DNA of 64,000 bases from positions 62,001-126,000 of the forward strand of contig NZ_FWFZ01000006.1 of the NCBI RefSeq assembly GCF_900172355.1, given 5' to 3'. The notes beneath the pieces are model-generated. The model was given only the letters and a program-made list of their open reading frames with translations, made no database searches and was not told where the DNA came from. Within the stretch, counting starts at the first letter, position 1, and every line of letters starts with the position of its first letter. The position numbers and the translations under genes are program-made. This DNA is from Roseisalinus antarcticus. Its GTDB lineage: Bacteria; Pseudomonadota; Alphaproteobacteria; Rhodobacterales; Rhodobacteraceae. This document shows positions 4,348 through 60,533 of this stretch, one piece after another.

Positions 4348-5208
4348 ATGAGCAGGGGGCGGGGAATGTCGGCACGACGGGCGAAAATCATGGCTGTTGC
4401 GGCATTGGCCGCAGGCCTGACGCTGGCGGGCTGCGACACGTTCGATCCGCGCCAACCGGGCGTGCTGGAGGCCTATTCGGCCCAGCAGATCTTCGAACGC
4501 GGCGAATTCGAGCTGGATCGCAACCGCGCAGATGACGCGGCCTATTACTTCGGCGAGATCGAGCGGCTTTATCCCTATTCGGAATGGGCGAAGCGGGCGC
4601 TGATCATGCAGGCCGCGGCCTATCACCAGGATCGCGACTATCCCAACGCCCGGTCCGCCGCCCAACGCTTCATCGACTTCTACCCCGCCGATACCGACGC
4701 AGCCTATGCGCAATACCTGCTGGCGCTCAGCTATTACGACCAGATCGACGAGATCGGCCGCGACCAGGGTCTGACATTCCAGGCCCTGCAGGCCCTGCGC
4801 GCCGTGATCGAGATCTATCCCGACAGCGAATATGCCGAACCCGCGATCCTGAAGTTCGACCTGGCCTTCGATCACCTCGCCGCGAAAGAGATGGAGGTCG
4901 GACGCTACTACCTGAAGGGCGGGCATTACGCGGCGGCGGTCAACCGGTTCCGGGTCGTGGTCGAGGATTTCCAGACCACCGCCCACACGGCCGAGGCGTT
5001 GCACCGGCTGGTCGAGGCCTACCTGTCGCTGGGCCTCACCGAGGAGGCCCAGACCGCGGGCGCGATCCTGGGCTACAATTACCGCTCCACGCCGTGGTAT
5101 CAGGACAGCTATGCCCTGCTGACCGGACAGGGGCTGAACGTCGAGGCCACGGGCGACAACTGGCTGGCCTCGATCTACCGTCAGGTTGTGCGGGGCGAAT
5201 GGCTTTAG
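4348..5208 (+). CDS. bamD: Outer-membrane assembly lipoprotein BamD
   Basis: BamD is an essential lipoprotein of the BAM complex, which inserts beta-barrel proteins into the outer membrane. The 286-residue chain has a signal sequence ending in the lipobox LAGC, with the lipidated cysteine at residue 29. It then has TPR-type helical repeats (AYYFGEIERLYPYSEWA, SAAQRFIDFYPADTDAAYA and similar) that fill the chain. The start ATG is preceded by ATGAGGA at 4336-4342. The position between lpxC and recN is the order expected in Rhodobacterales. Confidence 0.95.
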   Translation: MSRGRGMSARRAKIMAVAALAAGLTLAGCDTFDPRQPGVLEAYSAQQIFERGEFELDRNRADDAAYYFGEIERLYPYSEWAKRALIMQAAAYHQDRDYPNARSAAQRFIDFYPADTDAAYAQYLLALSYYDQIDEIGRDQGLTFQALQALRAVIEIYPDSEYAEPAILKFDLAFDHLAAKEMEVGRYYLKGGHYAAAVNRFRVVVEDFQTTAHTAEALHRLVEAYLSLGLTEEAQTAGAILGYNYRSTPWYQDSYALLTGQGLNVEATGDNWLASIYRQVVRGEWL

Positions 5209-5213
5209 GGGCT

Positions 5214-5234
5214 GGTGCGCAATGACCGCGCACC
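5214..5234. repeat. Small palindromic hairpin between bamD and recN
   Basis: GGTGCGC (5214-5220) pairs perfectly with GCGCACC (5228-5234) around AATGACC, five bases after the bamD stop, and runs into CTACCC. There is no U tract. It resembles short REP-like elements of GC-rich genomes rather than a classic terminator. Confidence 0.4.
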
Positions 5235-5291
5235 CTACCCAAGCCGAAAGGCTGCGCCTCTGCCGCGCAGCGATGTGAGGCCGTCAGGCGA

Positions 5292-6938
5292 ATGCTGCGA
5301 ACGCTCGATATTCGGGACATGCTTATCATCGACCGGCTGGAGCTTGAGTTTCAGCCCGGTCTGAACGTGCTGACCGGCGAGACCGGGGCCGGCAAGTCGA
5401 TCCTGCTGGATGCGCTAGGCTTTGTGCTGGGCTGGCGGGGGCGGGCGGAACTGGTGCGCAGCGGTGCTGAGCAGGGCGAGGTGACGGCGGTGTTCGATCT
5501 CGCGCCCGGCCATGGCTGCGAGGCGGTGCTGGCCGAGGCCGGGATCGGCGCGGAGGATGGCGAGCTGATCCTGCGGCGCGTCAACGCCCGGGACGGGCGC
5601 AAGACGGCCTGGGTCAACGGCACCCGGGTCTCCGGAGAGGTGCTGCGGCAATTGTCCGACAGGCTGGTGGAGTTGCACGGCCAGCACGACGATCGTGGCC
5701 TGCTGAACCCGCGGGGCCACCGCGCGTTGCTCGATGCTTTCGCGGGCGCGGATACGGGCGCTGTGCGCGGCGTCTGGACCGCGCGGCGCAAGGCGCAGGC
5801 CGCGCTGGCCGAGGCGCGGGAGGCGGCCGAGACCCTGCGCTCCGAAGAGGAATTCCTGCGCCACGCGGTGGCCGAGTTCGACGACCTCTCGCCCGAGGAG
5901 GGCGAGGAGGAGCTGCTCGACCGGCAGCGGCGGACGATGCAATCGGCGGAACGGATCCGCGCGGACATCGCCAAGGCCCACGGCGCGTTGACGGGGCAGG
6001 GGGCCGAGGGTCTGATGACCGACGCGATCCGCTGGCTTGACGGCGCGGCCGAGGCCGCCGAGGGGCGGCTCGACGCGCCGCTGGAGGCGCTCGGACGGGC
6101 GATGGATGCACTGGGTGAGGCGGAACAGGGGGTGGCGGACTGCCTCGATGCGCTGGATTTCGACGGGCTGGCGCTGGAGCGGGTGGAGGAGCGTCTGTTC
6201 GCGATCCGGGCACTGGCGCGCAAGCACGGCGTCCTGCCCGATCAACTGCCCGCCTTCGACGGAGAGCTGCGCCATAGGCTGGAGGCGCTCGACGCCTCCG
6301 ACGGGGATCTCAAGCGGCTGGAGGCGGAGGCCGCGGCCGCCGAGACGGCCTATGCCACCGCCGCCGCTGCCCTGTCGGAGGAAAGGACCGTCGCCGCGCG
6401 CCAGCTGGAGGTCGCGATGGGCGCCGAGCTTGCCCCGCTCAAGATGGAGCGGGCCGAGTTCCGTGTCCAGATCGAGGACGGAGAGCCCGGCCCCGAGGGG
6501 TGGGACGCGGTGACCTTTCTGGTGGCCACCAACCCCGGTGCGCCGGCGGGCGCGTTGAACCGTATCGCCTCGGGCGGGGAATTGTCGCGTTTCCTGCTGG
6601 CCCTGAAGGTCTGCCTGACCCGCGAGGCGCAAGGGCTGACCATGATCTTCGACGAGATCGACCGCGGCGTCGGCGGCGCGACCGCTGCGGCCGTTGGCCG
6701 GCGGCTGGCGCGGCTGGCCGGGGATGGCCAGGTTCTGGTCGTCACCCATTCGCCGCAGGTGGCGGCCCTCGGCGGCCATCACTGGCGGGTCGAGAAACGA
6801 CAGGGCGCGGATGAGACGATCTCGACCGTGGTGCCGCTGGACGCGGAGGCGCGGGTGGACGAGATCGCGCGGATGCTGTCGGGCGATACCCTGACGGACG
6901 CGGCACGCCAGGCCGCGCGGGCGCTGATTGACGGCTGA
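5292..6938 (+). CDS. recN: DNA repair ATPase RecN
   Basis: RecN is an SMC-like ATPase recruited to double-strand breaks for recombinational repair. The 548-residue length is normal. Walker A is GETGAGKS at residues 29-36. A long, charged helical middle part, about residues 150-360, is the coiled-coil region. The ABC signature (ASGGELSRFLLALK) and Walker B (MIFDEIDRGVGG, near residue 452) lie in the C-terminal head. It is the last gene of the cell-wall/repair cluster on this strand. No SOS box was identified upstream by eye. Confidence 0.96.
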   Translation: MLRTLDIRDMLIIDRLELEFQPGLNVLTGETGAGKSILLDALGFVLGWRGRAELVRSGAEQGEVTAVFDLAPGHGCEAVLAEAGIGAEDGELILRRVNARDGRKTAWVNGTRVSGEVLRQLSDRLVELHGQHDDRGLLNPRGHRALLDAFAGADTGAVRGVWTARRKAQAALAEAREAAETLRSEEEFLRHAVAEFDDLSPEEGEEELLDRQRRTMQSAERIRADIAKAHGALTGQGAEGLMTDAIRWLDGAAEAAEGRLDAPLEALGRAMDALGEAEQGVADCLDALDFDGLALERVEERLFAIRALARKHGVLPDQLPAFDGELRHRLEALDASDGDLKRLEAEAAAAETAYATAAAALSEERTVAARQLEVAMGAELAPLKMERAEFRVQIEDGEPGPEGWDAVTFLVATNPGAPAGALNRIASGGELSRFLLALKVCLTREAQGLTMIFDEIDRGVGGATAAAVGRRLARLAGDGQVLVVTHSPQVAALGGHHWRVEKRQGADETISTVVPLDAEARVDEIARMLSGDTLTDAARQAARALIDG

Positions 6939-24855: not shown

Positions 24856-25707
24856 ATGTCTGCCCTACGCTCCCTGATTCTCGGGGGGACACTGTTGTGC
24901 CTCGCATTCACAGCTGCCGCTGAATCCGGGCCGGAGGCCACCGCAGAGCCGGTGACCGTCGAACTGCGTCCCCTGTCCCGGTCCGATGCGCTGGCTGCCG
25001 AAGCCGCCGCGCGGCGAGAGCACCTGTCGTCGGTGCGCCCCGTGGCGCGACCGGCGCACATGCTGCGCTATCCCGTGCGGGTGATCGAGGGGCCGCCGCC
25101 GGTGCGCCCGCCCGCGCGGATCGACTGGGTGCCGCCGGCCCGCTGGGATTTCCATTCCGACGGCGAGCGCTGGACCCGGGCCGCGATGTCGGCGATCCGC
25201 TCTCACGGCGGCGGGCTGGAGGACATCGTGCCACGGGACATCGCGACCTGGTGCCCGGCCTACCGGCAGAATTCGGCGCTGCAGCGGCGGGCCTTCTGGG
25301 TCGGGATGATGTCGGCGCTGGCCAAGCACGAAAGCACCTGGCGGCCCGGCGCGGTGGGCGGAAACGGGCGCTGGTTCGGGCTGTTGCAGATCTTCCCGGA
25401 CACGGCGCGGCGCTATGGCTGCCGGGCGCGGACCGGGGCCGCCCTGACCGATCCCGAGGACAACCTGTCCTGCGCGGTGCGGATAATGGGGGTCACGGTG
25501 CGCCGTGACAACGCGATCGCCCTGCGCGACGGGCGCTGGCGCGGGGTCGCCGCCGACTGGGGGCCGATGACAAACCGCCGCAAGATCGCCGAAATGGCGG
25601 CCTGGACGCGGGAGCAATCCTATTGCCAGCCCAACCTCGCGGTCATGGCGAGCCTGCGGCCGCAGATGCGCCCGGTGGTCGAAACCGTCTCGACGATGGG
25701 AGAGTAG
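24856..25707 (+). CDS. Secreted lytic-transglycosylase-like protein (paralogue)
   Basis: A 283-residue paralogue of the preceding gene, 59 bases downstream. It has a signal sequence (LGGTLLCLAFTAAAES) without a clear lipobox, a Pro/Arg-rich spacer of about 80 residues, and the same SLT-like core: LAKHESTW, then GRWFGLLQIFPDTARRYGC. The four core cysteines are conserved in spacing with the first copy. The first copy should be anchored to a membrane and this one free or wall-bound, so the pair may have divided roles in periplasmic peptidoglycan turnover. Confidence 0.82.
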   Translation: MSALRSLILGGTLLCLAFTAAAESGPEATAEPVTVELRPLSRSDALAAEAAARREHLSSVRPVARPAHMLRYPVRVIEGPPPVRPPARIDWVPPARWDFHSDGERWTRAAMSAIRSHGGGLEDIVPRDIATWCPAYRQNSALQRRAFWVGMMSALAKHESTWRPGAVGGNGRWFGLLQIFPDTARRYGCRARTGAALTDPEDNLSCAVRIMGVTVRRDNAIALRDGRWRGVAADWGPMTNRRKIAEMAAWTREQSYCQPNLAVMASLRPQMRPVVETVSTMGE

Positions 25708-54850: not shown

Positions 54851-54926
54851 GCCGATCAGCACGGCCGATCAGCCCGGCCAATCAGGCCACCAACAAGCAC
54901 GGCCAATCAGGCCGGCCAATCAGCCC
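54851..54926. repeat. Six degenerate 12-13-bp tandem repeats at a gene end
   Basis: Units (54851, 54863, 54876, 54889, 54901, 54914) follow GGCCAATCAGGCC with variants; the fourth is the most diverged. The array ends over the stop codon (54920-54922) of the long leftward gene, and most units contain a TGA on that strand. Confidence 0.88.
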
Positions 54927-57900
54927 GGAATGTCCAGCCGCACGTTCCGCCCGCCTCGTGTGTAGGTGATGTAGCCGTCGCCGATGCCGCGTACCTGGCC
55001 GCCATCATCCAGGCGGTCTCCGACCGCGACACGCATGTAGCGGCCATTGGCCAGCCGCACGAGGGCGCGGCGGTCATCCTCGCGGCCGTAGATGCCGATC
55101 AGGTTGATCCGGCTGAGGTTGATCGCGTTGTCGGTGGTCGCCGCGGTCGCCACGCCGCCGCTGGTGCGCCCCGAGGGCTGAACCGCGGTGCCCCTGCTCG
55201 CGGCGGGCGCCGCCGCGGCGGTGCGCACCGAGGGCTGTCGCGCGGCCTGGGTGCGGGCGCGGCTGACGATCCTGTCCATGTTGCGCGGGCGGGCGTCCGG
55301 GCGCGGCGACCGTGCGATGGCCAGGTTCGAGGCGTTGACCGTGGCCGGCACGCTGTTGCCCAGGGCGGCCGCGGCCGCGGCCGCCGCGGCCTGGAACTCT
55401 CCGCTGCGATCGGGGGCGGCCTCGGCAACCTCCGGCTCGGCCTCCGCCTCCGCCTCCGCCTCGGGGGCGAGCCCGGCGGGCCGCACCCGCGGGCGGAACC
55501 CCGCGAGCGTCGGATCCGGCGGCGGGGGGGCGGCGGCCACGATCTCGTCGGGCCGGACCCGCGGCCGGAGCGTGGTGAGAGAGACACCGCCCGCGCTGGC
55601 GAGGGTCACGGTCTGGCCCGCCTCGAGCGCGGGCTCGGGCTCGGGCGCCGCGTCGTCGCGCGGCTCGGGCGTGGCCTCGGCTTCGGCTTCGGGTGCGGCA
55701 ACTTCGGCGCCCATGGTCTCTATCGCCGCCTCGGTGACCGAGGCGGGCCGGGCCGGCGGGCGCACGCCCGGTGCGTCGAGAAAGGCGAGCACATCGGTGT
55801 CGACCCAGGCTTCCGGCGGGGCTTCGGTCGCGGCCTCGTTCGCCAGGGACGCCTCGGTTTCTTCGGGCTGGGCGGGCTCAGGGGCGGCTGTCGGCTGTTC
55901 GGGCGCGTCGGGGCCCGCGGGTGATGTGCCCGGCCGGACCGGAGGCCGCACGGTGATGGTGTCGATGAAGCGCACATCGTCGGGCGCCGCAGGTTCTGAT
56001 TCAGGGGCCGATGCAGGCTCTGTCTCCGGACTCGGGTCGGCCTCGGCCTCGGGGGTCGTGTCGGCCTCGGCCTCCGGGGTCGCGGCTTCTGCGGGCGGCG
56101 GCGTTCCGGGCCGCGCGGGGGGGCGGATCCCGGAAGTGGCGAGATAGACCACCGTGTCGCCCTCGGCTTCGTCGCTTGCGGATGTCTCGCCCTCGGCGGC
56201 ATCGCCTGCGTCAACAGGGTCGGCTGGCGCACCAGGCGCGGCGAGCGCCGGGGCAGGGTCGACGGCAAACGGCCCGGTGTCGGGGCGCCCCGGCGGGCGG
56301 ACATCGGCCCGCGCGAGATAGACGACCCCGGGCGGGGCGGTCTCCGGGGCTTCGGCGGTCCCGGTTTCAGCCACTCCGGATCCAGCCACCTCGGATCCAG
56401 CCACCTCGGGGTCCAGTGCATCGGGGTCCGCCACCCCTGCGTCGGGCGCATCGGCCACCGGCACTTCCGCCGCGGCGACATCGGCGTCCGGAAGCCCTGT
56501 TTGCGGCGTCTCGGGCGCGATCTCAGCGGCGTCGATCTGGTCATCGGCGGCGGGCGGCGGCTCCGGTCCGAAGGCGGTCAGGGCCGCTTCGGGCACCAGG
56601 TCTTCGGGGCGCAGAGGCGGCTGCAATTCCGGTGCGCCGGCTATCACGAGGGTGCCGTTCGCAACCTCGGTCTCGGCATCCTCGGGGGCCAGGTCCGTCG
56701 CCGGGTCGAGCGGCGGCGGCTGCGTTCCGGGACGTGTCGGCGGCAGCAGCGCCGGCCGCCCGGCGAACACCAGGATGCCGTCGGGCGTCAGCGTCCCCTC
56801 GGGCGTGGCCAGGATGAAGCCGCGCTCGTCGCGCTCGAAGGTCTCGCCCGGGGGCGGCGGGTCGGCAGGCGTGGGAATGCGCGCATCGCTCAGCGCCCCG
56901 TCAAGGTCCAGCGGCAGGTCAGGCGGCGGGGTCACGTCGTAGCCTTGCGTCGCGATCGGAAGCACCCCGCTCTGGGCCTCGATCCGCGGGGTGAGCGGGA
57001 TCCGCGGGGCGCGCTGCCAGACGCCGGTGGCGGCATAGATCCGCTGGGCCTCGGCAGGGCTGAGGACACGGCCGATGGGGGTGGCGGGCGTCGAGGCGAT
57101 GACCGGGGCAAAGGGGCTCGCCACGGCACCGCTGTCCCCGCTATCAGCTTCGATATCAGGGGCTTGCGGGGCGGTCGCCGCGATCTGCGGCGCCTCGGGC
57201 AGGGTTGCCTCCGCGCCTGCGGGCTCTGCCGCGCGGGTGCCGCTTTCGGGGGTCGCGACCGGGGCGCCGGGGGCGGCGGGGGCCGCGACCAGCGGGGCCG
57301 AGGCCGAGACCTCGGGGGCGGCGGGCGGCTGTGCAGAGGCGACGGCCGTGCCGGGGTCATTGCCGCCCAGCCCGAGCCATCGCGCCACGCCCTCGGGCCC
57401 GACGGCCGCCATGGCGCCGACCACGGCCATGACGATCAGCAGGATCACGGTCAGGATCAGCCCCAGGAACCGCGGCTTGCCGCCTACGCGGCGCTCCTGC
57501 TCGGCGCGGCGGGCGCCGAAGACGGTCATCTGCGCACGCTCGGCGTCCGGCTTTTCGCTGGCAGGCGCCGGCGTCGGCGTGGGCTGCTTGCGGCCCTTGA
57601 ACAGACCGCGGCGTCCAGGGCTCTCGGCCTCGGCCTCCGGCGCGGCCGGCGTCTCGCGCAGGGGGCCGAGGTCACCCTTGGCGGCCGGGCCGGTCGGTGG
57701 GGCGTGGATTTCGCGCGGGCCGTCGTCGGGGTCACGGGTCTTGCCGCTGGGCCGCGCCGGGGGCGAACCCGGGGTCTGCGGGATCGGAGCGGCGCGGTCC
57801 GGATCCACGGTCAGGGACGGCGCCTCGCCGGCGTCGAGCGTGCTGGCCGCGCGGCCGGTGACGGCCGGCGCGGCGCCTGCGTTGGGGCCAGCCGCGGCGC

Positions 57901-59626
57901 CGAGGGCGGTCGCGGGGGCGGCGGGCACGTCCTCTTCCGGCCGCGACACGGTGAGCGGGGCGGTCTCACCCGCGGGGGCGCGGGACGGCGTCGGTTTCGC
58001 CTTGCGGAACGCGCTGCCAATGGTGTCGCGCCAGGATCCCTGTTTCGGGCGGTTCTCGGCGGCGATTTCGCCGGTGGCCTCCGACGTCGCGGTCCGGGGC
58101 GCGTCGAGGAAAGCCGGCCTCTTCATCGCGGGAGCCGCGTCCACTGCAGGAGCCGAGGTTTCCGGCAGCGGGGATGGCGGCTCGGTCGGGTCGGACGCCC
58201 CTTTGCCGGGCATCTTGCCGGACATGCTGCCGGACGCCGGCGGTGGCGGTGGATCGCGTCGGGCGCGGAACGACAGCGGCGCCTGTCCCGCGCTGCCGCT
58301 CGGAGAGGGGGCCGGCGGCCGTGTCACCGGGGGATGGGACGGCGCGGCGGGGCCGGCCGGGGCGCGGCGGCGGAAGCTGAGCGCCGGCTCTTCGGACGGG
58401 GCCTTGTCGGTGGCGGGCCTGCCGGGCACGGGGCGGCCCGGGGCCCGGGGCGGCGGGCCGGCTCCGGCCTTGGCGCCCGGAGCGGGGTTTGCGTGCCTGG
58501 GGCCAGGGGGCCTGGGGCCAGGGGGCGCGAGTCCGCCGCCGTTCGTCCGCCCGTTGCCGCGATGCCGCGAGGCGAAAAGCGGGGCCGGTTCGGGCTCTTG
58601 CGCGCGGGGGGACTCCGCCGAATCTTCCGTCTCGGACGCAGGCGCGGCCCGCGGTTCCGGGTCGACCGCGGGCGGCGCTTCGGCGGGCTCTTGCGCCGGG
58701 GGCGTGGTCGCGACCCCAGCGGGCGGATTGGCAGGGGCGTCGGTGCCCTTGCGAGGGGCCGCGTCCGTGTCCGCAGGCTCACCTGCCATGGGCTCACCGG
58801 CCCCGGCGTCGCTGTCGGCAGGATCTTCTGCGGCAGATTTGGTGACCTGGGGCTTGGGGGCCGCAGGTTCTGTGACGTTATCGCTGGTGTTCGGGGTCTC
58901 GGCTGCCGGCTGCGCCGCCCCGGGCGCCGGATCCGCCGGCGGCTCCGGGAGGTCCGGCACGGGGTCCGGGTCCGTGGCGGCGCCGGGGGCGCTTGCAGCG
59001 GCGGCGATCTCGACCTCGGACGCTTCGGCGTCCTCCGGCGACTCGGCGACCGATTCCGCCCGCTCATCCTCTCGTGCGGCGGCGCGGGCGGACCCGGGCA
59101 GGTGCGCCGTGCCGACGACCTGGACCGGATCGTCGTCGCGCGGCACGTCCCGGCCCGGCGCGTCGGAGGTCGGGCCGAAGACCGCCTCGCCGACGAAGGT
59201 GAAGGGATCAGGGATCGCCGCGAAGGAGATCGGTGTGAAGCCGTGGGTGCGGGCGAATTCCTCGGCCTCGGCCAGGGTCTCGCGGGCCACGGCGGCCACA
59301 TAGGTGCGCCCGCCGCCCTTGGTGTAATCGATCACCAGGTCATCGACCTGGTAGGGCGTCACGCCGACGAGCGCGAGCCGAACGTCCGCATCCGTCGTCA
59401 TCGTCCCGTCGATCGCGAGATACTTGATCTGTTCGTTCGGTATCAGCAGCTTGACCTTGAACGGACCGTCGGCCAGCGCCTCTCCGCGACCGCGGAGCGC
59501 GGCGAGCGCGGGGCCTACATCCTCGGTCTCGAGGCCGACCTCGCCCACCAGAAGCCAGCCGTCCTCTGCCCGCTGCAGCAGGCGAAGACCATCGAAAGCA
59601 AGGGACAAGGCGTAGTTGGGTGTCAT
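54920..59626 (-). CDS. 1568-residue envelope-spanning protein with GspL/PilM-like and GspC/PilP-like ends
   Basis: Residues 1-155 resemble the first actin-like lobe of GspL/PilM (KVKLLIPNEQIKYLAI, VTPYQVDDLVIDYTKGGG, HGFTPISFAAIPDPF). Residues 160-715 are Pro/Ala/Glu-rich and probably disordered. One membrane helix lies near 719-742 (FLGLILTVILLIVMAVVGAM). Residues 745-1490 form an acidic periplasmic arm with recurring RPPxRP motifs (VRPPGRPDTG, IRPPARPGTP, VRPPVRPGTS, VRPPARPAS). The last 65 residues (INLIGIYGREDDRRALVRLA, then VGDRLDDGGQVRGIGDGY) resemble the GspC/PilP homology region. The low-complexity part can be mistaken for translation factor IF-2, but there is no GTPase. The function is unknown. 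The frame is intact despite its length and repeats. Confidence 0.85.
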   Translation of the reverse strand: MTPNYALSLAFDGLRLLQRAEDGWLLVGEVGLETEDVGPALAALRGRGEALADGPFKVKLLIPNEQIKYLAIDGTMTTDADVRLALVGVTPYQVDDLVIDYTKGGGRTYVAAVARETLAEAEEFARTHGFTPISFAAIPDPFTFVGEAVFGPTSDAPGRDVPRDDDPVQVVGTAHLPGSARAAAREDERAESVAESPEDAEASEVEIAAAASAPGAATDPDPVPDLPEPPADPAPGAAQPAAETPNTSDNVTEPAAPKPQVTKSAAEDPADSDAGAGEPMAGEPADTDAAPRKGTDAPANPPAGVATTPPAQEPAEAPPAVDPEPRAAPASETEDSAESPRAQEPEPAPLFASRHRGNGRTNGGGLAPPGPRPPGPRHANPAPGAKAGAGPPPRAPGRPVPGRPATDKAPSEEPALSFRRRAPAGPAAPSHPPVTRPPAPSPSGSAGQAPLSFRARRDPPPPPASGSMSGKMPGKGASDPTEPPSPLPETSAPAVDAAPAMKRPAFLDAPRTATSEATGEIAAENRPKQGSWRDTIGSAFRKAKPTPSRAPAGETAPLTVSRPEEDVPAAPATALGAAAGPNAGAAPAVTGRAASTLDAGEAPSLTVDPDRAAPIPQTPGSPPARPSGKTRDPDDGPREIHAPPTGPAAKGDLGPLRETPAAPEAEAESPGRRGLFKGRKQPTPTPAPASEKPDAERAQMTVFGARRAEQERRVGGKPRFLGLILTVILLIVMAVVGAMAAVGPEGVARWLGLGGNDPGTAVASAQPPAAPEVSASAPLVAAPAAPGAPVATPESGTRAAEPAGAEATLPEAPQIAATAPQAPDIEADSGDSGAVASPFAPVIASTPATPIGRVLSPAEAQRIYAATGVWQRAPRIPLTPRIEAQSGVLPIATQGYDVTPPPDLPLDLDGALSDARIPTPADPPPPGETFERDERGFILATPEGTLTPDGILVFAGRPALLPPTRPGTQPPPLDPATDLAPEDAETEVANGTLVIAGAPELQPPLRPEDLVPEAALTAFGPEPPPAADDQIDAAEIAPETPQTGLPDADVAAAEVPVADAPDAGVADPDALDPEVAGSEVAGSGVAETGTAEAPETAPPGVVYLARADVRPPGRPDTGPFAVDPAPALAAPGAPADPVDAGDAAEGETSASDEAEGDTVVYLATSGIRPPARPGTPPPAEAATPEAEADTTPEAEADPSPETEPASAPESEPAAPDDVRFIDTITVRPPVRPGTSPAGPDAPEQPTAAPEPAQPEETEASLANEAATEAPPEAWVDTDVLAFLDAPGVRPPARPASVTEAAIETMGAEVAAPEAEAEATPEPRDDAAPEPEPALEAGQTVTLASAGGVSLTTLRPRVRPDEIVAAAPPPPDPTLAGFRPRVRPAGLAPEAEAEAEAEPEVAEAAPDRSGEFQAAAAAAAAALGNSVPATVNASNLAIARSPRPDARPRNMDRIVSRARTQAARQPSVRTAAAAPAASRGTAVQPSGRTSGGVATAATTDNAINLSRINLIGIYGREDDRRALVRLANGRYMRVAVGDRLDDGGQVRGIGDGYITYTRGGRNVRLDIPG

Positions 59627-59804
59627 CCGTCAACGGCTCTAGCAGGTGTCCGGAAGGGTGCAAGCTCTGCCTTCCAACAGGTCGCAACTACAGCAGAAAT
59701 CCGCCAAGTCCAAGCGGGTGCGAATTTCTTCCAAGGATCGTGATACGACATCCGTCACATAGGTCGTAAACGTGAAAATAACCATAGCATTGAGGGGATC
59801 CACG

Positions 59805-60533
59805 ATGACAAGAATTGGTTTCCAGATCATTAATCTGGTGCTCGCGGCGGTCGCGGCCGCGGCGTTCCTGGCGCTGTTCGGGCTGGCGGCGCGGCCCGCG
59901 GCGGCACAGGGCTTTGAGGCGCCGGTGATCCGGGTGTCGGGCGAGGGGGCGGTGACAGTGGCCCCGGACATGGCGGTGCTGAGCCTGGGCATCCGCGAAG
60001 AGGCGCGGACGGCGGAGGTGGCTGTCGCGGCCATGGGGCGGCGGACGCAGAGCGTGCTGGACGCGCTGGCGGAGGTTGGCATCGTCAAGACCGACATCGC
60101 CACGGGCAGCCTGAGGCTTGACCCGACCTTTTCGTCTTCGTCGATCAACTCCGGCCCGCAAGTCACGGGATTCGTGTCGGAAATCACGTTGGAGGTGCGG
60201 ATCCGGGACCTCGATGAGCTCGGTGGGATCCTGAGCTCCGTCGTGGCCGAAGGCTCCAACCTTTTCCAGGGGGTGCAGTTCGACGTGGCCGACCGGGACG
60301 AGGCTCTGGACGAGGCCCGGGCGCTGGCGGTGGCGGACGCGCGGGCGCGGGCGGAGGTCTTTGCGGCGGCGGCCGGGGTCGCCCTTGGCCCGCTGCTGAG
60401 CCTGTCGGAGGCCAGTGCGGGCGGCGGCCCCGCGCCGATGATGGAGTCGCGGGCCATGGACTTCGTGCCGGTGCCGCAGGGGGAATTGACGATTCGCGCC
60501 AATGTCACGATGGTCTACGGGATTTCCGAATAA
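59805..60533 (+). CDS. SIMPL-domain (DUF541) periplasmic protein
   Basis: A 242-residue exported protein with a signal sequence (LVLAAVAAAAFLALFGLAAR, ending ARPAAAQ) and a SIMPL/DUF541 domain: IRVSGEGAVTVAPDMAVLSL, then ARALAVADARARAEVFAAAAG and a C-terminal VTMVYGI strand. Relatives include BP26/OMP28 of Brucella and YggE, linked to oxidative stress. I chose ATG 59805 because GAGGGGA lies 6 bases upstream; GTG 59772 has none. It is divergent from the 1568-residue gene with a 178-base gap. Confidence 0.9.
   Translation: MTRIGFQIINLVLAAVAAAAFLALFGLAARPAAAQGFEAPVIRVSGEGAVTVAPDMAVLSLGIREEARTAEVAVAAMGRRTQSVLDALAEVGIVKTDIATGSLRLDPTFSSSSINSGPQVTGFVSEITLEVRIRDLDELGGILSSVVAEGSNLFQGVQFDVADRDEALDEARALAVADARARAEVFAAAAGVALGPLLSLSEASAGGGPAPMMESRAMDFVPVPQGELTIRANVTMVYGISE

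Follow-up and report, generated by a model that had tools for sequence, protein, structure and literature searches.

A Rhodobacteraceae protein predicted to join a GspL/PilM-like lobe and a GspC/PilP-like domain in one chain, with probable independence of secretins

Introduction

The question raised by the locus described here is what purpose is served by a single polypeptide that appears to carry a GspL/PilM-type lobe at one end and a homology-region (HR) domain of the GspC/PilP type at the other. The gene is located at 54920..59626 on the reverse strand of a 64,000-nt stretch of DNA (hereafter, the window) of Roseisalinus antarcticus (assembly GCF_900172355.1, contig NZ_FWFZ01000006.1, positions 62,001–126,000 of the forward strand), whose genome, designated G000, comprises 4,999,877 bases in 155 contigs, the window being located on contig C70. 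GspL holds the cytoplasmic ATPase in type II secretion. In the initial annotation, made from the sequence of the window, the two ends of the protein were likened to GspL/PilM and GspC/PilP, which normally belong to separate proteins, and it was suggested that the protein may serve as a single tether between a cytoplasmic partner and the outer membrane, in a system of its own.

Protein Architecture and Terminal Folds

The frame begins with ATG, comprises 1568 codons and has zero internal stops; antisense frames of up to 1080 amino acids (aa) overlap it, and it was chosen over them because homologues support it. One copy of the gene was found by a search of the genome. The following features were distinguished, with conservation assessed in an alignment of 69 full-length proteins (the window protein and 68 relatives, 714–1568 residues):

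54920..59626 (−): whole gene, predicted bitopic inner-membrane protein of 1568 aa (intact frame, single copy, family-wide homologues)
59162..59626 (−): N-terminal domain, residues 1–155, predicted to form one actin-like lobe that carries an SHS2/1C-type subdomain and resembles one half of GspL/PilM
57473..59161 (−): putatively cytoplasmic low-complexity linker, residues 156–718 (P 20%, A 21%)
57401..57472 (−): predicted membrane helix, about residues 719–742 (hydropathy maximum)
55181..57400 (−): putatively periplasmic low-complexity arm, residues 743–1482 (1–7 RPxxRP per protein in 69 proteins)
56999..57064 (−): conserved island LSPAEAQRIYAATGVWQRAPRI of the arm, residues 855–876
56732..56863 (−): conserved island DPPPPGETFERDERGFILATPEGT... 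of the arm, residues 922–965
55259..55306 (−): conserved motif PRPDARPRNMDRIVSR, residues 1441–1456, holding the last RPxxRP (consensus of the 69 proteins,.RPd.RPrNf.rvVa.)
54926..55123 (−): C-terminal HR domain, residues 1502–1567, predicted GspC/PilP/GspB fold

Residues 1–155 were modelled by AlphaFold2 as a compact domain (mean predicted local distance difference test (pLDDT) 94.6, predicted template modelling score 0.88), and both the model and the fold search revealed an actin-like lobe with an SHS2/1C subdomain. GspL and PilM scored above FtsA in this search, and the GspE–GspL complex 4pht was among the PDB matches. It should be noted that the fold of the N-end was assigned by structure search: the window copy had no match to the GspL/PilM profiles PF11104 and PF05134 at E ≤ 1, T2SSL matches were obtained for 2 of 80 members only (best E 0.11), and profile searches of the N-end with Pfam and NCBIfam, as well as hmmsearch against PDB, gave nothing useful. 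A PF11104 scan of 149 genomes of the family was discarded as uninformative for the N-end because the matches, mostly at model positions ~165–238, fell in frames read as FtsA or other actin-like proteins. A second actin lobe is absent, since the first lobe alone was modelled and low-complexity sequence follows residue 155; judging from the fold, such a domain would lack a complete nucleotide pocket.

A division role keeps some plausibility because the lobe resembles FtsA. The protein would then be a divisome or polarity component, with the lobe acting like the 1C subdomain of FtsA and the arm signalling to the periplasm, so that parts of the FtsA–FtsN pair stand on one chain. This is unlikely, given that FtsA was outscored by GspL and PilM, that HR domains are not known to have a division role, and that, according to one abstract, PilM was dispensable for the recruitment concerned.

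The C-terminal ~65 residues are likewise compact (pLDDT 90–94 over residues 1506–1565), and their HR-domain fold was indicated by prediction and structure search, with weaker support from two further comparisons. The window copy remained below the curated profile cut-offs (PilP, 16 vs. 25.6 bits; pilP_fam, 26.4 vs. 34.65 bits). By likeness to known HR domains, binding of the N0 domain of a secretin would be a candidate function of this end, but the protein is retained in 11 of the 12 good genomes (defined below) that lack a secretin match. A rival explanation sees in the C-terminus a small beta-domain of general use, employed in several places, whose HR likeness is silent on partners; it is consistent with the weak profile matches to SctD in 12 of 21 members and to L2 in three of 21 (L2 was also close behind in another C-end comparison) and with the short paralogue found in R. 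antarcticus and relatives, which stands alone and shows no signal peptide. Against this, the twelve best rows of the structure search were all trans-envelope machines, followed by a clear gap, and the explanation is considered very unlikely. The stand-alone HR-like paralogue is located at G000:C126:145179-145412 (−) (locus L155; E 5.9e-13, 152-aa frame); in relatives, similar short frames occur beside genes read as purF and cvpA.

A single hydrophobic stretch was found, with 20-mers starting at residues 714–729 above the threshold and the best start at 723 (mean hydropathy 2.98). Low complexity extends on both sides of it (P 20% and A 21% before, P 17% and A 22% after). Four exact RPPxRP motifs follow the helix (residues 1110, 1168, 1227 and 1289), together with three further RPxxRP (1354, 1378 and 1442) and PPxRP at 962 and 1003; one PPxRP precedes the helix (residue 622). 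In the 69 proteins, the length of the cytoplasmic linker, counted from residue 161, ranged from 104 to 562 residues and that of the periplasmic arm from 328 to 751, and every protein (69/69) had zero RPxxRP before the helix and 1–7 after it. The alignment revealed conserved islands at residues 1–170, the helix, 855–876, 922–965, 1441–1456 and 1483–1568, with the linkers free to vary. In 68 of the 69, the 15 residues on the N-side of the most hydrophobic stretch were more positive than the 15 on the C-side; by the positive-inside rule, the lobe would be cytoplasmic and the HR domain periplasmic, a side assignment judged from charge alone. The arms appear, from their length, to be sufficient for crossing the periplasm.

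The initial annotation had described an intact frame of 1568 codons, a structured N-terminal 155 residues, a long low-complexity part, one helix near 719–742, at least four RPPxRP motifs in the periplasmic arm and a compact 65-residue C-terminus, and all of these are borne out; the likening of the ends to GspL/PilM and GspC/PilP is upheld by prediction and structure search, with one lobe at the N-end and with curated profile scores not reached at the C-end. On the basis of the models, it is very probable that the two folds occur in one chain.

Occurrence in the Family

The family survey covered 149 genomes of 148 genera of Rhodobacteraceae, including 132 with completeness ≥ 90% and contamination ≤ 5% (good genomes), with residues 1–153 as the N-end query and the last 81 residues as the C-end query. 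The N-end was detected in 135 and the C-end domain in 143 of the 149 genomes. Among the good genomes, the N-end was present in 129, of which 123 were found directly, five by profile (G017, G083, G094, G101 and G130) and one by a search of the locus (G090). The three without it were G095, with a long C-end frame cut at the contig end, G029, with a 121-aa C-end frame, and G015, in which even the profile found no N-end. A C-end match was obtained in 130 of the 132, G030 and G054 having the N-end and no C-end match; the C-end counts may take in the stand-alone HR-like paralogue, and the frame of G029 could be one. In G015, the C-end protein (locus L140, 9051–9722, +; 223 aa) looks exported and has PRPRP repeats and an HR-like domain only. 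In 140 genomes from other families of the class, no match to the N-end profile was obtained.

Scanning named genomes yielded 416 confirmed relatives, and the best 80 were taken further; the nearest N-end among the named relatives was that of Histidinibacterium lentulum (73% identity). An intact frame from N-end to C-end was found in 68 of these 80 loci. Of the other 12, nine are truncated by the end of the contig or locus, L068 is interrupted by a stretch of N, and L103 and L119 are broken or odd. In another set of 20 loci, both ends were placed in one frame in 17 by single-sequence search. The ends lie in two frames at L036 (G049), L050 (G014) and L148 (G059), owing to a frameshift, a sequencing error or a true split; these three loci, together with L103 and L119, were excluded from the one-chain count.

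These data bear on the possibility that the protein was left behind when a type II secretion or type IV pilus system was lost, its ends being kept for an unrelated or minor reason. The folds derive from such systems, and no companion gene adjoins in the loci examined, where the neighbourhood was generic by reading and no other type II or pilus gene was seen beside the gene. However, both ends are conserved and the linkers are not, and the N-end is near-universal in the good genomes, which is unlike the behaviour of a relic; this origin is regarded as highly improbable.

Secretins, ATPases and the Tad-like Locus

A secretin was defined as a PF00263 match and a T2SSE-family ATPase as a PF00437 match (threshold E ≤ 0.001). 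One match to each was found in the R. antarcticus genome, approximately 3 kb apart on contig C100, in the following locus:

G000:C100:103000-113700: Tad-like locus L168, in which the genome has its sole matches to a secretin and a T2SSE ATPase

The gene run at this place was read as cpaB-cpaC-...-cpaE-cpaF-tadB-tadC-tadD-cpaA (names by reading). No N_methyl prepilin match was found in the genome, nor was a complete type II secretion or type IV pilus set, both the secretin and the ATPase belonging to the Tad-like locus. Consequently, the statement in the initial annotation that no secretion or pilus gene is nearby holds for the secretin and the T2SSE ATPase, which lie on another contig than the window, and is limited to those two.

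In the family, a secretin match was present in 133 of 149 genomes and in 120 of the 132 good ones. Both ends of the protein were found in one frame in 11 of the 12 secretin-less good genomes (G045, G056, G067, G071, G090, G094, G102, G117, G125, G136 and G148), the twelfth, G030, having the N-end only. PF00437 was also unmatched in nine of the 12 (G030, G045, G056, G090, G094, G117, G125, G136 and G148), among which G045 is a single contig; in G067, the PF00437 match was below the curated cut-off. Secretin- and ATPase-lessness is profile-based here, and divergent secretins or ATPases may escape the search. Since the protein persists without a secretin or T2SSE-ATPase match, its partners in those genomes must be others.

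The single secretin and single T2SSE ATPase lying together in a Tad-like locus, with no N_methyl pilin found, are what would be expected if the protein were an accessory of the Tad pilus, its lobe docking at the CpaF side and its HR domain at the Tad secretin in place of the GspL/GspC-type links that, to our knowledge, Tad loci lack. Known HR domains do bind secretin N0 domains (PMC9239104). However, eight good genomes have both ends with neither a secretin nor a T2SSE match, so that the protein does not depend on the co-occurrence of a Tad secretin and ATPase match; the gene lies outside the Tad-like locus; and the N-end profile is without matches in the 140 genomes of other families of the class, a comparison made irrespective of whether these have Tad loci. 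This role is considered quite unlikely. The protein is probably independent of secretins, and it is no secretion or pilus part in the simple sense.

Sharing of RPxxRP with Other Envelope Proteins

The arm motif was examined in samples of four genomes (G117, 708 kb; G000, 593 kb; G045, 419 kb; G148, 400 kb), in which 1846 genes were called by a home-made codon-usage caller. Among 598 genes with a hydrophobic N-terminus, RPxxRP after that segment was found in eight, the protein itself excluded, while the control patterns gave 3 (RPxRP), 3 (RPxxxRP), 4 (RPx4RP), 4 (RPx5RP) and 4 (PRxxPR) in the same 598, some proteins being counted repeatedly. One of the motif-bearing proteins is encoded in the window:

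24856..25707 (+): putatively exported SLT lytic transglycosylase P0002, two RPxxRP (window translation; PF01464, E 7.6e-10; export judged by eye)

A second SLT transglycosylase (P0004), a D-Ala-D-Ala carboxypeptidase (P0003) and a PF07486 cell-wall hydrolase were also among the eight, as well as a TonB-like protein (L268 of G148, 5055–5846), an ABC-auxiliary lipoprotein (L264 of G148, 343–1077) and a protein encoded where tolA would be expected in a tolQ-tolR-(tolA)-tolB-pal-like run, named by position and reading, with no Pfam match; the eighth was an oxidoreductase, probably not exported. The probable TolA of R. antarcticus bears two RPxxRP. Eleven proteins had other spacings only, and the nine scanned included one transglycosylase (L201), L223 and L228 being outside the scan. 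Two or more RPxxRP occurred in three genes each of G117 (648 genes) and G000 (491 genes), compared with 0–2 genes for each of eighteen other motifs; in both genomes, the three were the protein itself and two of the envelope proteins listed above. In G045, only the protein had at least two, and in G148, a single gene did, whose matches overlap and lie in a doubtful N-terminus.

Because they share the motif of the arm, the wall enzymes and the probable TolA are the best partner candidates. The reading favoured here, with a probability of about 0.5, regards the protein as a trans-envelope scaffold made of one chain, most likely positioning peptidoglycan-remodelling enzymes and/or Tol-Pal. The cytoplasmic lobe would use its SHS2/1C face to bind a partner in the cytoplasm or membrane; a flexible cytoplasmic tether and one membrane helix would be followed by the long flexible periplasmic arm with RPxxRP, which would extend across the peptidoglycan layer. 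At the far end, the HR domain would grip a non-secretin envelope protein, possibly with contact to the outer membrane. The enzymes and/or Tol-Pal may be positioned at the division site, and transglycosylase P0002 may act in the same process. Several points weigh against this scaffold: the excess of RPxxRP is small, the samples were partly chosen for the gene (those of G117, G000 and G045 contain its own locus), and over all called genes there was no excess (4/648 and 9/491), as with other spacings, the signal being confined to genes with a hydrophobic N-terminus and to those with at least two copies. The sharing of RPxxRP is a lead, not proof. A cell-wall role as such is proposed tentatively, somewhat short of an even chance, and the more ambitious version, a family-wide secretion-independent machine of Rhodobacteraceae whose lobe and HR domain organise peptidoglycan hydrolases and Tol-Pal through RPxxRP docking, is doubtful.

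Neighbouring Genes and Promoter Region

A SIMPL/DUF541 protein (window 59772–60533, +; PF04402, E 1e-48) is the divergent neighbour of the gene. Of the 79 related loci that extend 1 kb or more upstream, 50 have it at the same place. The CenKR regulon site of Rhodobacter sphaeroides is TGA-N8-TGA, according to Table 1 of PMC9275681. A CenKR link of the promoter was rejected: 11 exact matches occur in the window, a chance-level count, and none in 59627–59771.

Comparison with Known Systems and Significance

The protein departs from GspL and PilM in its single lobe of 155 residues, in a chain that runs on into the HR domain, and in that its gene was not seen to adjoin pilus or type II genes; it differs from GspC and PilP in its profile score below the curated cut-off and in its occurrence without a PF00263 match. 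FtsA, which contains the 1C subdomain, had a lower fold score and has no periplasmic part, and the second lobe is missing from the protein. TolA and TonB arms share with it the single helix and the long proline-rich arm, and the probable TolA of R. antarcticus also bears RPxxRP, whereas the protein ends in an HR-type domain and TolA has no actin-like lobe. As reported in PMC9239104, the HR domain of GspC contacts the secretin in type II secretion, OutB of Dickeya is an HR protein that binds peptidoglycan via a C-terminal extension, and in GspAB the cytoplasmic ATPase domain of GspA and the periplasmic GspB part are in one chain, with GspB homologues reported in gamma- and betaproteobacteria (PMC9239104). 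In the GspAB (EpsAB) fusion, however, GspA is an AAA+ ATPase and not an actin-like lobe, and GspB/OutB serves the type II secretin. The literature searched, in titles and abstract openings, gave neither a description of this protein or of a GspL/PilM-plus-HR fusion nor a function for it. The HR and GspL/PilM folds are known as such; their union in one chain and its persistence without a detected secretin were not encountered in that literature.

In Rhodobacteraceae, a large family of marine and photosynthetic bacteria, one near-universal protein is thus predicted to carry the docking folds by which other systems connect a cytoplasmic motor with a pore in the outer membrane, and it is retained in members for which neither motor nor pore was found. 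If the favoured reading is true, docking parts of secretion and pilus systems would have been reused in Rhodobacteraceae as an envelope scaffold, with RPxxRP as the handle on its partners.
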